NCBI RefSeq assembly: GCF_000421105.1
Contig: NZ_ATWF01000001.1
Location: forward strand, 1,088,930 to 1,152,929
Length of the DNA stretch: 64,000 bases
Source: Limisalsivibrio acetivorans
Lineage (GTDB): Bacteria > Chrysiogenota > Deferribacteres > Deferribacterales > Geovibrionaceae
Reading direction: 5' to 3'
Shown here: positions 6,920 through 53,630 of the stretch, piece after piece
How the letters are laid out: each line of letters starts with the position of its first letter
Numbering within the stretch: position 1 is the stretch's first letter
The notes under the pieces: generated by a model
Database searches by the model: none
The model's input: the letters and a program-made list of their open reading frames with translations, nothing else
What the model was told of the DNA's origin: nothing
Made by a program: the position numbers and the translations under genes

Positions 6920-8005
6920 TTAAAGGTTAAGGGGTATCTCCGCCCATACGGTGGTTCCCCTCTCTATGGTGCTCTCGAAACCTATCTCGCCACCATGGAC
7001 ATCTGCCATCAATTTTGCGGAATAGGTCCCAAGCCCTGTCCCCCCCTCCTTGCCGGAGGTTGAGTACCTCTCAAAAAAAACGGGCTGAACCTCTTCGGGG
7101 ATCACGCCGAAGTTATGTACCTCAAAACGACGTACATCCCTGTAGACAAAGGTTTTAACCGTAATGTCACACCTCTCCGGAGAGGCCTCCACAGCGTTCT
7201 TGATAAGGTTTGCCATCATAAGGGAGATCAGCTCATACTCACCCCTGAAAACGGGGCATGGAGCCTCACCAAGTGGGATTCCGTCTATAAGGAAGTTGAT
7301 GCGGCACCCCTTTTTCCCGGCGAGCCTCTCAAACTCCTTAGAGAGATCCCCAAGGAGTTCGCAAACGTTGCAGGGAGCGGGCTTTAGCTCGTAGGTCCCC
7401 TCCTCCATCCTTATAATATCAAGGGAGTGCTCAATGAGCCTGAGCATCTGCTTGCCGCTACGCATTATATAGTCCACATACTCACGCTGCTCTTCTGTGA
7501 GCCCCTCCTCAAGGGAAAGAAGCTCGGCGCCCCCAAGTATGCCATTAAGGGGTGAGCGCAGGTCATGGCGGACAATACGCTCGGTATCCTTACGGAGCTT
7601 TTCGTAGCGCTCCCTTTCGGTTACATCACGTATGACCGCTGTGAAAAGAATATTCCCTTCACGCTCCCACTGGGTCAGCGACATCTCCATAGGAAACTCT
7701 GTACCATCGATCCTTCTGCCTGAGGCCACGATAGTTCTGCTGTGTATATCCATAACACCTGTTTCTGCGGCTTTGCGTATATAATCACGCCTGCTTTCAC
7801 GGAACCGCTCGGGCATCATCTCTATTATATTAAGACCAAGAGCCTCGTCCTCGGAGTACTCGAACATCCTGCAGAAACCGTCATTCACATCGATGATACT
7901 TCCACGGGCATCGGTGGTGACTATAGCCTCGGCAACACTCTGCACAAGGCAACGGTAATGGTAGAAGCTTTCGGCTTCTGCGGCGTTCCAGTCTTTATTT
8001 GACAA
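6920..8005 (-). CDS. PAS-domain sensor histidine kinase
   Basis: A 361-residue cytoplasmic kinase without membrane segments. A PAS domain occupies about residues 15-130 (VTTDARGSIIDVNDGFCRMF and the closing VIRDVTERERYE). The dimerisation helix carries the phosphoacceptor His147 in VRHDLRSPLNG. The ATPase domain shows the N box (NLIKNAVEAS), a divergent G1 box (HNFGV in place of DNGxG) and a good G2 box (GGTGLGTYSAKLM). The start is TTG, with GCAGG upstream, inside the end of the isochorismatase-like gene (11-bp overlap), so the two are translationally coupled. No response regulator is adjacent. The PAS ligand is unknown; soluble PAS kinases often sense redox state or small molecules. Confidence 0.9.
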   Translation of the reverse strand: MSNKDWNAAEAESFYHYRCLVQSVAEAIVTTDARGSIIDVNDGFCRMFEYSEDEALGLNIIEMMPERFRESRRDYIRKAAETGVMDIHSRTIVASGRRIDGTEFPMEMSLTQWEREGNILFTAVIRDVTERERYEKLRKDTERIVRHDLRSPLNGILGGAELLSLEEGLTEEQREYVDYIMRSGKQMLRLIEHSLDIIRMEEGTYELKPAPCNVCELLGDLSKEFERLAGKKGCRINFLIDGIPLGEAPCPVFRGEYELISLMMANLIKNAVEASPERCDITVKTFVYRDVRRFEVHNFGVIPEEVQPVFFERYSTSGKEGGTGLGTYSAKLMADVHGGEIGFESTIERGTTVWAEIPLNL

Positions 8006-49720: not shown

Positions 49721-50164
49721 TTATGACGGATCCGGAACGTCGATATTCTGAATAACATAGCCTATCAGCGATGCTGTTTCGGTGATTGCAGGGCTGGGAG
49801 TTTTATAGGTGAATATATAATCCCCTCTCATACTCTTAACGCCAACACCGCAGGACTGGTTGCTGTTCGCAGTCTTCATACCGATATAGGTGCCGCTTGA
49901 TGCCACAAACTCAGAAGAATTAACACCGTCGGTGAGTGTCAATGTTCCTGCGGCAGGGGCGAAGGGATCGGGATACCTGTCATGCTCACCAAAAAAGGAT
50001 TCAACTTCAGTACGGAAGTTACTGAGGTCGGATTTTGCAGTTGTGTTATACGCTCTTGCCCTGAACTTGGCATACTGGGGTATTGCAACGGCTGCTAAAA
50101 TGCCGATTATAGCAACTACAACAAGTAGTTCAATAAGTGTAAAACCTTTAGATTTAGCAAACAT
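49721..50164 (-). CDS. Type IV pilin-like protein, second copy
   Basis: A 147-residue prepilin. Short leader MFAKSKG, then cleavage before Phe at FTLIELLVVVA, with the mature Glu5. Aromatic residues of the mature protein fall at positions 1, 24, 27, 32, 51 and 57 (F, Y, F, Y, F, Y), the six positions of Geobacter PilA. The C-terminal part is globular with GDYIFTYKT and one Cys. The ATG at 50164 has AGGAGG seven bases upstream. It lies 62 bp before the ABC genes and 270 bp after pilA. Confidence 0.9.
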   Translation of the reverse strand: MFAKSKGFTLIELLVVVAIIGILAAVAIPQYAKFRARAYNTTAKSDLSNFRTEVESFFGEHDRYPDPFAPAAGTLTLTDGVNSSEFVASSGTYIGMKTANSNQSCGVGVKSMRGDYIFTYKTPSPAITETASLIGYVIQNIDVPDPS

Positions 50165-50346
50165 ACTCTGCCTCCTGAAGGCTATAAGCCGGATAGTTGT
50201 TGATAACACGGTACATACACACCCGCACAGATAGATGCTTCAGATAAGGTTCAGAGTAACCGGACGGTCTGGTATATAGATAGTAGTTAAAGTTCGATAT
50301 TTGGATACTTATATAAATAATAACACAGTTATTGCGGCTTACCTTA

Positions 50347-50434: not shown

Positions 50435-50863
50435 TTAGGGAGCAGCGGGAATATCGCCGGCTACAAGTTTATCACCCTTAGTGTCGTCAGTGGAGCCGAT
50501 AATAGAGTCATCTGAAGTAACATCATAAAGAATGTCGCCGGGAGTGGACTTAGCAGCAGCACCATAAGACTGGTTGTTAGCGCCGGCAGTGCTACCCCAC
50601 AACACGTTTGCTGAGGGTGAAAAGTCTGCGTTATCGTAAGCTTTGTCGTTTACAGCCTGAGCATCAGGATACTGAGCATAGTCTGTGTAGAAACCTTCCC
50701 AGGCAGTCTGAAGGTTTTTAAGGTCGGAGTTAGCTGCAGAGTTATAAGCTCTTGTACGGTACTTGGAGAACTGAGGGATAGCAATTGCGGCAAGTATACC
50801 AATGATCGCTACAACCACAAGAAGTTCAATGAGCGTAAAGCCTTTTTTGTTTGTCCTCATCAT
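50435..50863 (-). CDS. pilA: Type IV major pilin PilA, aromatic-rich
   Basis: A 142-residue prepilin: leader MMRTNKKG, then FTLIELLVVVAIIGILAA with Glu5. The mature N-terminus has F1, F24, Y27, Y32, Y51 and Y57 plus W47, F50 and Y54, so every aromatic position known from Geobacter PilA is kept and three more are added. Unlike the 61-residue Geobacter pilin it has a full globular C-terminus, Asp/Ser/Ala-rich and without a Cys pair. AGGAGG precedes the ATG. It would be exported, cut by a prepilin peptidase and assembled into a pilus; the assembly genes are elsewhere. Confidence 0.92.
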   Translation of the reverse strand: MMRTNKKGFTLIELLVVVAIIGILAAIAIPQFSKYRTRAYNSAANSDLKNLQTAWEGFYTDYAQYPDAQAVNDKAYDNADFSPSANVLWGSTAGANNQSYGAAAKSTPGDILYDVTSDDSIIGSTDDTKGDKLVAGDIPAAP

Positions 50864-51297: not shown

Positions 51298-51381
51298 GCC
51301 GAAGTGGCGGAATTGGTAGACGCGACGGACTCAAAATCCGTTAGTAGCAATACTGTGGGGGTTCGATTCCCCCCTTCGGCA
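51298..51381 (+). tRNA. tRNA-Leu (CAA anticodon), presumed prophage attachment site
   Basis: A class II tRNA with acceptor GCCGAAG/CTTCGGC, anticodon loop CTCAAAA, variable arm and T arm GGGGGTTCGATTCCCCC. No encoded CCA. Phage genes start right after its 3' end, which fits integration at the tRNA 3' half by a tyrosine integrase; the second att copy is outside the window. Confidence 0.95.
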
Positions 51382-51402
51382 TTAGTAATTTAAAGAACAT
51401 GA

Positions 51403-51823: not shown

Positions 51824-51888
51824 GTAAAGGAGTTTCGGAAGTTTGCCGCCGATCTGGTGCTGAGCCGCCTCGTGAAGTATTCTTGACA
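51824..51888 (+). pseudogene. Remnant of a second antirepressor-like gene
   Basis: The reading KEFRKFAADLVLSRLVKYS then TGA matches residues KEFRKFAADLVLNKLES of the intact gene at 52144; 25 bases (AAGTTTGCCGCC onward) are identical at 51839 and 52450. An in-frame TGA lies just upstream and no start exists, so it is a 3' scrap. Its last codons hold the -35 of the leader RNA promoter. Confidence 0.75.
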
Positions 51889-51912
51889 TGAATAATTATT
51901 TCCGCATATACT
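51883..51912 (+). promoter_or_regulatory. Promoter of the leader RNA/antirepressor transcript
   Basis: TTGACA (51883-51888) and TATACT (51907-51912) with 18 bases between; expected start near 51919. Confidence 0.78.
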
Positions 51913-51918
51913 GAGGGT

Positions 51919-52092
51919 GACAAAAACCTTCACGTAGGCGGATGCCGTTTCCGTTCCTTACGGCAGCTCAAAACGACATTTGCCAAGTTACCCCTGATTA
52001 AAATCAGGGTTAAAGATGCTCCGGTGTCCCGTGTCCGTAAGGTTCGGGGTGGCTATTCCTACGTGAGGCCATTGTCAACACCGGGGCTTTTT
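51919..52092 (+). ncRNA. Probable C4-type antisense RNA upstream of the antirepressor
   Basis: The interval begins at a strong promoter and ends at a terminator (GCTCCGGTGT at 52018-52027 with ACACCGGGGC at 52078-52087, then TTTTT). A local hairpin TGCCGT/ACGGCA (51943-51965) has CCTTACGG on its 3' side, complementary to CCGTAAGG at 52035. TCACGTAGG (51930) and CCTACGTGA (52058) are complementary, and CCTACGTGA also complements the antirepressor ribosome-binding region TCACGTAGGAGG at 52126. In P1, P7 and P22 the C4 RNA blocks antirepressor synthesis in this way. Family membership was not tested. Confidence 0.62.
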
Positions 52093-52109
52093 CTGTCTGA
52101 CAAGCAGAT

Positions 52110-52140
52110 GAGCCTCCGGATTAAATCACGTAGGAGGCTC
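52110..52140 (+). promoter_or_regulatory. Hairpin hiding the antirepressor ribosome-binding site
   Basis: GAGCCTCC (from 52110) is complementary to GGAGGCTC (52133-52140), which contains the Shine-Dalgarno bases; the same bases can instead pair with CCTACGTGA at 52058. The two pairings exclude each other. Confidence 0.55.
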
Positions 52141-52143
52141 AAT

Positions 52144-52950
52144 ATGAGAGAATCCAGCCCTATCACCGTATCATACGGAAGTATCGACCTTAACGTTATC
52201 AAAGATCAGCAGCATACGTACCTGATGCCAACTAAAGAAGTGGCTAAAGGTTATGGGGTAGCCCCTAGCAATATTCGAAACCAAAAGATCCGCCACAAAG
52301 ATGAATTAACTGAAGGTATCCATTTTATATCTTGCGCAACAAAATCAAACGCAGGAAAGATACCTTCAAGAAAGTTCACCTACTGGACAAAACTCGGCGT
52401 AATCTATCTCGGCTTTTTCATCAAGTCTGAACGTGCGAAAGAGTTCCGCAAGTTTGCCGCCGATCTGGTGCTGAACAAGCTGGAATCGAAGAATAAAGAT
52501 GAATTTGTTATTAGGCGGGGGCAGAGTGCTGTGGATGCTTTTCTGGAGAGCTGCCATCCCGGCATGAGGGAATACATGGAGCCCATCCTGAGACGAGATG
52601 ATGCCCCCATTTCCGAAGAGATGCGAGGTCCTCTGCCCGATGCGCCGAAACCCGACTACAGCAAGTATCTCGGACAGTCCCCCGAAAGGCTGCGCAAGCT
52701 CCATTACTTCATCGACCAGTGCACATCTCCCCACCTGAGAGACAAAATAATTAACAAAATATACTCGGACATCGCTGACGCATACGGACGGAAGGAGGGC
52801 GAAGAGATTCTTACCCTTGCAGAGGCGGCGGAGGCCACAGGGAAGAGCATGGCGGAGCTCCTCAGGGAGGTTTCCTTCGGCAGGCTAAAACCAATGGTGA
52901 CAACAGACGACGGGCTCATCCTGCTGTTTAAGAGTGACCTCTTAGGCTGA
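52144..52950 (+). CDS. Phage antirepressor-like DNA-binding protein (ORF6N/Bro-N type)
   Basis: A 268-residue protein. The N-terminal part (about 20-115) fits the Bro-N/ORF6N/Rha-type antirepressor fold: YLMPTKEVAKGYGVAPSNIRNQKIRHKDELTEGIHFI, then TYWTKLGVIYLGFFIKSERAKEFRKFA. The C-terminal part ends in a helix-turn-helix-like segment (LTLAEAAEATGKSMAELLREVSFGRLKPM). The ATG at 52144 has AGGAGG six bases upstream, within the switchable hairpin. Antirepressors inactivate the prophage repressor; the leader RNA upstream would control its translation. Confidence 0.72.
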   Translation: MRESSPITVSYGSIDLNVIKDQQHTYLMPTKEVAKGYGVAPSNIRNQKIRHKDELTEGIHFISCATKSNAGKIPSRKFTYWTKLGVIYLGFFIKSERAKEFRKFAADLVLNKLESKNKDEFVIRRGQSAVDAFLESCHPGMREYMEPILRRDDAPISEEMRGPLPDAPKPDYSKYLGQSPERLRKLHYFIDQCTSPHLRDKIINKIYSDIADAYGRKEGEEILTLAEAAEATGKSMAELLREVSFGRLKPMVTTDDGLILLFKSDLLG

Positions 52951-53005: not shown

Positions 53006-53032
53006 TTGACATATAACCTGTATGGTTATAGT
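53006..53032 (+). promoter_or_regulatory. higBA promoter with embedded operator
   Basis: TTGACA (53006) is followed by TATAGT (53027, 15-base spacer) or TAGTTT (17-base spacer). The palindrome TATAACC-TGTAT-GGTTATA (53012-53030) fills the space between them, the expected place for autoregulation by the HigA-HigB complex. The toxin ATG begins seven bases after TATAGT. Confidence 0.7.
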
Positions 53033-53039
53033 TTTACTT

Positions 53040-53321
53040 ATGATAGTCAATTTTGCCGATAAAGAAACAAGGAAGCTCTATGTTGACGGTTACAGCAAGA
53101 AGTTTCCTCAGGAGATTATACGAAAGGCACTGCTCCTGCTTGACCTTTTAGATGAGACATCTGTGGTGGAAGACCTTGGCGCCCTGGGAGGGCGAAGGCT
53201 TCATAAGCTGTCGGGGGAGCTTCAGGGTTTCTGGAGCATAAGTATAAATAAAAAGTGGCGGATTATATTCCGCTTTGAGGACGAGAACGCCCTGGATGTA
53301 AGGATAATTGACTATCATTAG
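53040..53321 (+). CDS. higB: HigB-type toxin (RelE superfamily)
   Basis: A 93-residue mRNA interferase-like toxin. The fold is recognised from IIRKALLLLDLLDETSVVEDLGALGGRRLHKLSGELQGFWSISINKKWRIIFRFE, with the basic residues (R, H, K and the RIIFRF Arg) used for ribosome-dependent mRNA cleavage in the family. There is no Shine-Dalgarno; the ATG lies seven bases after the -10, so it may be read as a leaderless message. An upstream extension of six codons is rejected. Nine bases before higA. Confidence 0.85.
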   Translation: MIVNFADKETRKLYVDGYSKKFPQEIIRKALLLLDLLDETSVVEDLGALGGRRLHKLSGELQGFWSISINKKWRIIFRFEDENALDVRIIDYH

Positions 53322-53330
53322 GAGGCTGAT

Positions 53331-53630
53331 ATGGAGCGTATAAAAGTGAATAGAACCAAAAGCCACCCCGGCGAAATCTTGAAAGAGCTGTATATAGATG
53401 AAACAGAAGGGCTGTCGCAGAAAAAACTTGCAGAATCCATAGGCGTTTCATTCCGCACTGTTAACCAGATATGCAACATGCGCAGAGGGATAACCCCCGA
53501 AGTGGCTGTAAGGCTTGCAAAGTATTTCAGTACAAGCCCTGAGCTATGGCTTAACCTCCAGATGTCTTATGATCTTCAGAAGGCGCAACGCTCAGTCGAC
53601 ACAAGTCATATAAAGCCGGCAGCGGTTTAG
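53331..53630 (+). CDS. higA: HigA-type antitoxin (XRE family)
   Basis: A 99-residue antitoxin with the HigA start SHPGEILKELYIDETEGLSQKKLAESIGVSFRTVNQICNMRRGITPEVAVRLAKYF, an XRE helix-turn-helix. AGGAGG lies seven bases before the ATG. It neutralises HigB and, with it, should bind the palindrome in the promoter. Toxin-first order is typical of higBA. Confidence 0.9.
   Translation: MERIKVNRTKSHPGEILKELYIDETEGLSQKKLAESIGVSFRTVNQICNMRRGITPEVAVRLAKYFSTSPELWLNLQMSYDLQKAQRSVDTSHIKPAAV

Follow-up and report, generated by a model that had tools for sequence, protein, structure and literature searches.

The leader at positions 51919 to 52143 of the window (by which we mean the whole 64,000-nucleotide stretch that was analyzed) raises the question of how the predicted antirepressor gene of a Deferribacterota prophage is held in check, and whether this is done by an antisense RNA of the kind known from phage P1. 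The catalogued occurrences of C4 RNA (RF01695) are in Proteobacteria and their phages (PMC2864571), and RNAs resembling C4 have been reported in Acinetobacter (PMC5320573). It is very probable that the window leader acts as an antisense switch of the C4 type and holds the prophage antirepressor off, and we infer as steps of that switch the transcription start, the termination, the action in trans, and the effect on lysogeny. In its anatomy the leader is C4-like, and it stands outside the Rfam family.

Anatomy of the leader and its prophage setting

The leader is made up, from 5' to 3', of a promoter, a pair of target copies (a1-b1), a C4-like module that carries the antisense segment b' in a loop and a' in a linker, and a second pair of target copies (a2-b2), with the ant start codon located downstream of b2 and the AGGAGG (Table 1). 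The promoter proposed in the first-pass annotation is present, with TTGACA at 51883 separated by an 18-nt spacer from TATACT, and the stretch from the expected start near 51919 through the TTTTT that ends at 52092 is 174 nt long. The 5' hairpin of the a1/b1 element has a GGCAGA...TCTGCCAA sequence that is retained by relatives of the leader, the P2 tip is CCGTAAGG at 52035 (CC-GUAA-GG, with a GNRA-type loop), and a' occupies the same position as the a' linker (CUGUCAA) in phage P1 C4. Every string quoted in the first-pass annotation was found where it had been placed, including GAGCCTCC at 52110 and GGAGGCTC at 52133. That annotation had recognized the b set of pairings, and it had overlooked the a1/a'/a2 set; it had also described the copy at 51930 as an internal decoy, which does match the a1/b1 sites annotated in phage P1, so that it is not a new element.

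Table 1. Positions of the leader elements and of the antirepressor gene in the window.
Feature	Position	Strand	Remark
Sigma-70-type promoter, TTGACA-18-TATACT	51883..51912	+	consensus match 11/12; TATACT at 51907-51912
a1 target copy, TGACAA	51918..51923	+	at the expected transcript 5' end; complementary to a' 52072-52077
b1 target copy, TCACGTAGG	51930..51938	+	complementary to b', identical to b2; corresponds to phage P1 b1
5' hairpin of the a1/b1 element	51937..51984	+	predicted fold; aligned to L067 and L214
CCTTACGG	51956..51963	+	complement of the P2 tip; may add a pairing that lengthens the rod, weakly supported
Spacer hairpin, TTACCCCTGATT/AATCAGGGTTAA	51988..52013	+	separates a1/b1 from the C4-like module; L067 and L214 have similar hairpins
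C4-like module	52018..52087	+	covariation across four leaders
P1 stem	52018-52027 / 52078-52087	+	ten pairs, nine Watson-Crick and one G-U
P2 hairpin of the C4-like module	52028-52048	+	
P3 hairpin of the C4-like module	52050-52071	+	
b' antisense segment, CCTACGTGA	52058..52066	+	in the P3 loop; pairs with b1 and b2
a' antisense segment, TTGTCA	52072..52077	+	linker from P3 to the P1 3' arm; pairs with a1 and a2
TTTTT 3' of the P1 stem	52088..52092	+	possible intrinsic terminator with P1 as its stem
a2 target copy, TGACAA	52098..52103	+	28 nt upstream of b2 (29 nt in phage P1)
Hairpin TGAGCCTCC/GGAGGCTCA	52109..52141	+	hides the Shine-Dalgarno AGGAGG at 52132-52137
b2 target copy, TCACGTAGG	52126..52134	+	overlaps the Shine-Dalgarno AGGAGG; complementary to b'
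Predicted antirepressor (ant)	52144..52950	+	268 aa, ORF6N/Bro-N-like N-terminal domain

The ant protein matches PHROG anti-repressor families at E values of 1e-5 to 1e-4, and its match to Pfam ORF6N lies below the cut-off. A 59-bp perfect direct repeat of the 3' part of a tRNA-Leu gene is found at 51324-51382 of the window and at 7160-7218 of locus L212, beyond the integrase gene, and these repeats probably mark the two ends (attL and attR) of a prophage about 37 kb long. The C4-ant unit lies about half a kilobase in from its left end. The gene content of the prophage includes a terminase, the integrase (L212 5909-7012, minus strand), and a helix-turn-helix repressor (L212 3290-3730, plus strand). 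Directly 3' of ant lie genes for a HigB-like toxin (53022-53321) and a HigA-like helix-turn-helix antitoxin (53331-53630), and beside the prophage site there are two adjacent type IV pilin-like genes on the minus strand (49721-50209 and 50435-50863).

The repeated segments are unlikely to have arisen by accident. In 5000 dinucleotide shuffles of this region a direct-inverted-direct triple of 9 nt never appeared, and one of 8 nt appeared once; there is no other 9-nt triple in the 64-kb window, where TCACGTAGG has no copies beyond those at 51930 and 52126 and CCTACGTGA none beyond that at 52058. The pattern TGACAA-N(0-30)-TCACGTAGG occurs at exactly three sites in the 2.97-Mb genome, which are a1b1, b'a' (as the reverse complement), and a2b2, and a reversed control pattern occurs nowhere in the whole genome. 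The fold of the 225-nt leader lies at z = -5.2 relative to shuffles. Just upstream of the leader promoter, a 37-bp fragment at 51827-51863 is 92% identical to positions 52438-52474 of ant and could be what is left of an older antirepressor gene or a trace of a recombination that brought in the leader. Its presence there implies that the region has been rearranged, and to that extent favors the idea that the whole layout is a chance arrangement or a degenerate, functionless remnant; the shuffles argue against that idea, and it is already contradicted by the covariation described below, in which independent relatives have replaced the sequences and kept them complementary, so that we regard it as scarcely credible.

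Relatives of the leader and its likeness to phage P1 C4

To find relatives we used a layout detector, which specifies the order a1 b1 ... b' a' ... a2 b2 followed by a start codon and no fixed sequence, on 2.3 Mb of loci. It matched only the window and its copies, phage P1, a leader of Ca. Mucispirillum faecigallinarum (L010/L051), which belongs to the same order as the window genome, and a viral contig (L067/L144), as compared with one match per 4.6 Mb of shuffled sequence; such a six-element search can find switches of this type without sequence similarity. A covariance model built from the window and L067 leaders matched L051 at 35.5 bits, and among 385 genomes it matched only the window and L214 (60.5 bits, E 1e-16), which comes from a genome of the Deferribacteraceae, the same family as the window genome. 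This brings the leaders of the window type to four, found in 3 of the 51 genomes of the phylum and in one viral contig. The promoter stands at the same position relative to a1 in L067 (TTGACA-18-TATACT) and L214 (TTGACA-18-TATTTA), and the hairpin that hides the Shine-Dalgarno sequence is kept in L067, L214, and L051, in the last as GTGAGC/GCTCAC.

The a segments of the four leaders are TGACAA, TACTAA, TAGTAA, and TATCCAA, and the b segments are TCACGTAGG, CCCCAAGG, TCAAACGG, and CCAAAGG, the L214 set being TAGTAA and TCAAACGG, with the layout kept and the sequences replaced. Although a and b have been replaced, both target copies are complementary to the antisense segments within each of the four leaders. 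In phage P1 the a1 and b1 sites are annotated only as putative; with exact complementarity conserved here although the sequences have been replaced, the role of these sites can be tested directly. The alignment check for compensating changes that the first-pass annotation had proposed gave the same picture for the C4-like module, in which 98.8% of cells are paired across the four leaders and 12 of the 21 stem pairs have changed on both sides, and none of 500 shuffles was as high on any measure; the four-leader alignment was fitted to the structure of the model, so that these counts lean toward it, and slid controls pair 37-51% of cells. A further pairing put forward in that annotation, between CCTTACGG and CCGTAAGG, is weak as a functional claim and not robustly conserved. 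The complementarity of CCGTAAGG to the 5' leader was equaled in 14 of 500 shuffles for the window and 24 of 500 for L214, which is modest, and for L067 (151/500) and L051 (319/500) it was no better than shuffles, and we rejected it as a conserved pairing.

The genes that follow the L214 and L051 leaders encode a clear Bro-N domain, and for the L214 protein the relatives found in phages carry antirepressor annotations; leaders of this type are thus associated with more than one kind of antirepressor. The nearest relatives of the ant protein, in phages of Nitratiruptor and Campylobacter and in other Deferribacterota (L008, L009, and L012), have no such leader upstream. Blastn searches of phages and plasmids with the leader gave no matches, and a pattern search of viral contigs, keyed to either the P1 stem or the hairpin over the Shine-Dalgarno sequence, recovered the full layout only in the prophage of the window and in L067. 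Weak Rfam C4 matches in L014 and L015 fall inside dnaG and heme-synthesis genes and were attributed to chance, and a 25-bit R2 match in a Mucispirillum-group genome (L222) was rejected as an unrelated sequence without the layout. In the genome of L214 (G011:C3) and L009, another antirepressor-like gene lies some 25 kb from the first, and it lacks this leader.

The closest comparator is the C4 RNA of phages P1 and P7 (RF01695, RF03163), and the phage P1 record AF234172 annotates a1 and b1 as putative sites, a C4 of 77 nt, a2, and b2 in front of icd-ant. The order in the window is the same, a1 b1 - C4 - a2 b2, with a2 b2 again lying across a ribosome-binding site in the antirepressor operon. The spacings in leaders of the window type and in phage P1 run from 12 to 14 between a1 and b1, 13 to 15 between b' and a', 25 to 30 between a2 and b2, and 65 to 72 between b' and b2; they agree within a few bases, except that the gap between b1 and b' is longer in the window, and a core UGACA in the a segment is common to both. 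Three of the features of C4 as a functional class are found in the window leader: by predicted fold and covariation the P1 stem encloses the P2 and P3 hairpins, which are followed by a single-stranded linker; the P3 loop holds b' and the linker holds a', and each of these has two complementary targets arranged in the phage P1 order; and b2 extends into the ribosome-binding site used by the antirepressor operon. The window differs from phage P1 in having a much shorter P1 stem that is followed by a U-run, a GNRA-type rather than a UUCG loop on P2, and the antirepressor gene itself rather than icd as the target. Phage P1 C4 also has a 3' ACC that is possibly used in processing by RNase P, whereas the window has neither this ACC nor the GG motif at the 5' end of its P1 stem, and the lack of a 3' ACC means that RNase P processing is not suggested.

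Layout, spacing, and covariation thus give good support to the earlier proposal of a variant C4-like RNA. The covariance search with the Rfam C4 model that had been suggested for this proposal came out negative, in that RF01695 (gathering threshold 45 bits) has no match at E<=10 in the window or in its own genome; the same cut-off yields nothing in the window for c4-a1b1 (RF03163, gathering threshold 46.7 bits) or c4-2 (RF02944, gathering threshold 41 bits), and c4-2 likewise has no match in L067, L214, or L221/L051. Phage P1, as a control, scored 68.8 bits against RF01695 and 51.0 bits against c4-a1b1. Models built from the new leaders do not match phage P1 C4 either, and since the models do not match across, shared descent with phage P1 C4 is not shown by sequence, though common descent is likely. 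What the window presents is a form invisible to public models, in Deferribacterota prophages and with two antirepressor domain types, and this suggests that the catalogues understate how widely antirepressors are under antisense control.

Competing folds and the proposed switch

The segment from 51919 to 52092 is predicted to adopt either a rod of -65.4 kcal/mol, held together by pairing of a', b', and the P2 region to a1, b1, and a section of the 5' hairpin, or the C4 fold of -61.3 kcal/mol. The rod is predicted to be incompatible with the outer P1 stem and to be able to form once transcription has passed about 52062, ahead of the synthesis of the P1 3' arm. For the C4-type switch that we favor, the single promoter would give rise to the leader and the ant mRNA, and most likely the C4-like RNA pairs with a2-b2 both in trans and in cis and blocks translation of ant, so that the resident prophage would be silenced and the cell would be immune to relatives that share its a and b sequences. 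In the rod state the antisense segments would be hidden and the terminator-like stem broken, and ant could be made; in the C4-fold state they would be exposed, and transcription may stop at 52092. A new leader would tend toward the rod, and C4-like RNA already in the cell would occupy a1-b1 and push it to the C4 fold, with b2 covered in any mRNA that is longer. Counting against this switch, the Shine-Dalgarno sequence of the window is predicted to be sequestered by a hairpin of its own under both folds.

It is possible, though we hold it only tentatively, that the leader represents a sub-type of the C4 switch in which the outer stem of the C4 module is the terminator and the upstream a1-b1 is the antiterminator. 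If that is so, the resident antisense RNA would silence the antirepressor of an incoming relative twice, through early termination and through a covered ribosome site, and the translation block of phage P1 C4 and the induced termination of P4 CI would be combined in one element.

A somewhat stronger contender, which we still rate below an even chance, is that the leader works by antisense-induced attenuation as in satellite phage P4, with the C4-like RNA of the prophage binding the nascent a1-b1 and blocking the rod, the P1 stem and U-run then terminating transcription, and the translation block at b2 being secondary. The P4 CI RNA brings about termination by pairing with the flanking seqA and seqC (PMC4825925), and it is like the window leader in being an antisense flanked by upstream and downstream target copies (PMC4825925). 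The rod and the P1 stem are mutually exclusive and near in energy, the rod can form before P1 is completed, and U-runs follow the P1 stem in the window, L067, and L051, all of which would fit such a mechanism. L214, however, retains all the pairings and has only TTTATG after the stem, which is not a clear U-run. The terminator claimed in the first-pass annotation is plausible as regards its ten-pair stem and TTTTT, but a simple terminator scan makes no call there, because 50 nt separate the arms, which also means that this is no simple terminator hairpin. The overlap of b2 with the Shine-Dalgarno sequence points to translation. P4 CI itself controls the termination of replication genes; the downstream target in the window is a ribosome-binding site.

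The same folds bear on whether a small RNA is needed in trans at all. A leader acting purely in cis would use the rod and the C4 fold to control ant by attenuation or by release of the Shine-Dalgarno sequence; the 3' arm of P1, left unpaired in the rod, may capture the anti-Shine-Dalgarno GAGCCTC and so make the ribosome site accessible. In the predicted free ensemble the anti-Shine-Dalgarno pairs with the P1 3' arm with a probability of 0.96 in L067 and 0.80 in L051, and in the C4 state of these two leaders it is predicted to pair with the Shine-Dalgarno sequence instead. For the window and L214, however, the Shine-Dalgarno hairpin is predicted to win in both states, and opening of this hairpin by the P1 3' arm, predicted for two leaders and failing in the other two, was set aside. 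A duplicated target together with a loop-exposed antisense segment is, moreover, the hallmark of a trans-acting RNA in phage P1, and we consider purely cis-acting control unlikely.

Other RNAs in front of antirepressor genes

The IsrK/STnc1160 leader of the Salmonella prophage Gifsy-1 resembles the window in being a bistable leader before an antirepressor gene in which an upstream RNA is complementary to a downstream structured RNA (PMC4825925). IsrK adopts alternative structures and activates in trans (PMC4825925), and with this precedent the logic at the window could be reversed, a short 5' a1-b1 RNA opening the leader in trans and turning ant on; it is in keeping with this that a1b1 of phage P1 overlaps an isrK match. 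Gifsy-1 differs in having a terminator between its two elements and in its short RNA being an activator (PMC4825925), and from a1-b1 to the C4-like module of the window there is no terminator, the spacer hairpin being without a U-run, which makes an activator even less probable than purely cis-acting control.

The c4-2 RNA (RF02944, in the same Rfam clan, CL00128, as C4) shares with the C4-like module of the window the P1-P2-P3 fold and the GNRA-type P2 loop, precedes the same antirepressor domain in phages of Bacteroidota, and has a b1-b'-b2 triple. It differs in that b' follows P3 rather than lying in its loop and stands about 48 nt from b2, and no a set came to light. A b1-b'-b2 triple precedes the same antirepressor domain in nine Bacteroidota-type phage loci (L047, L070, L071, L080, L083, L097, L058, L103, and L105), several of which match RF02944 below threshold, and from these sub-threshold matches together with the triple, c4-2 looks like a C4-type antisense RNA of antirepressor genes with a single target segment.
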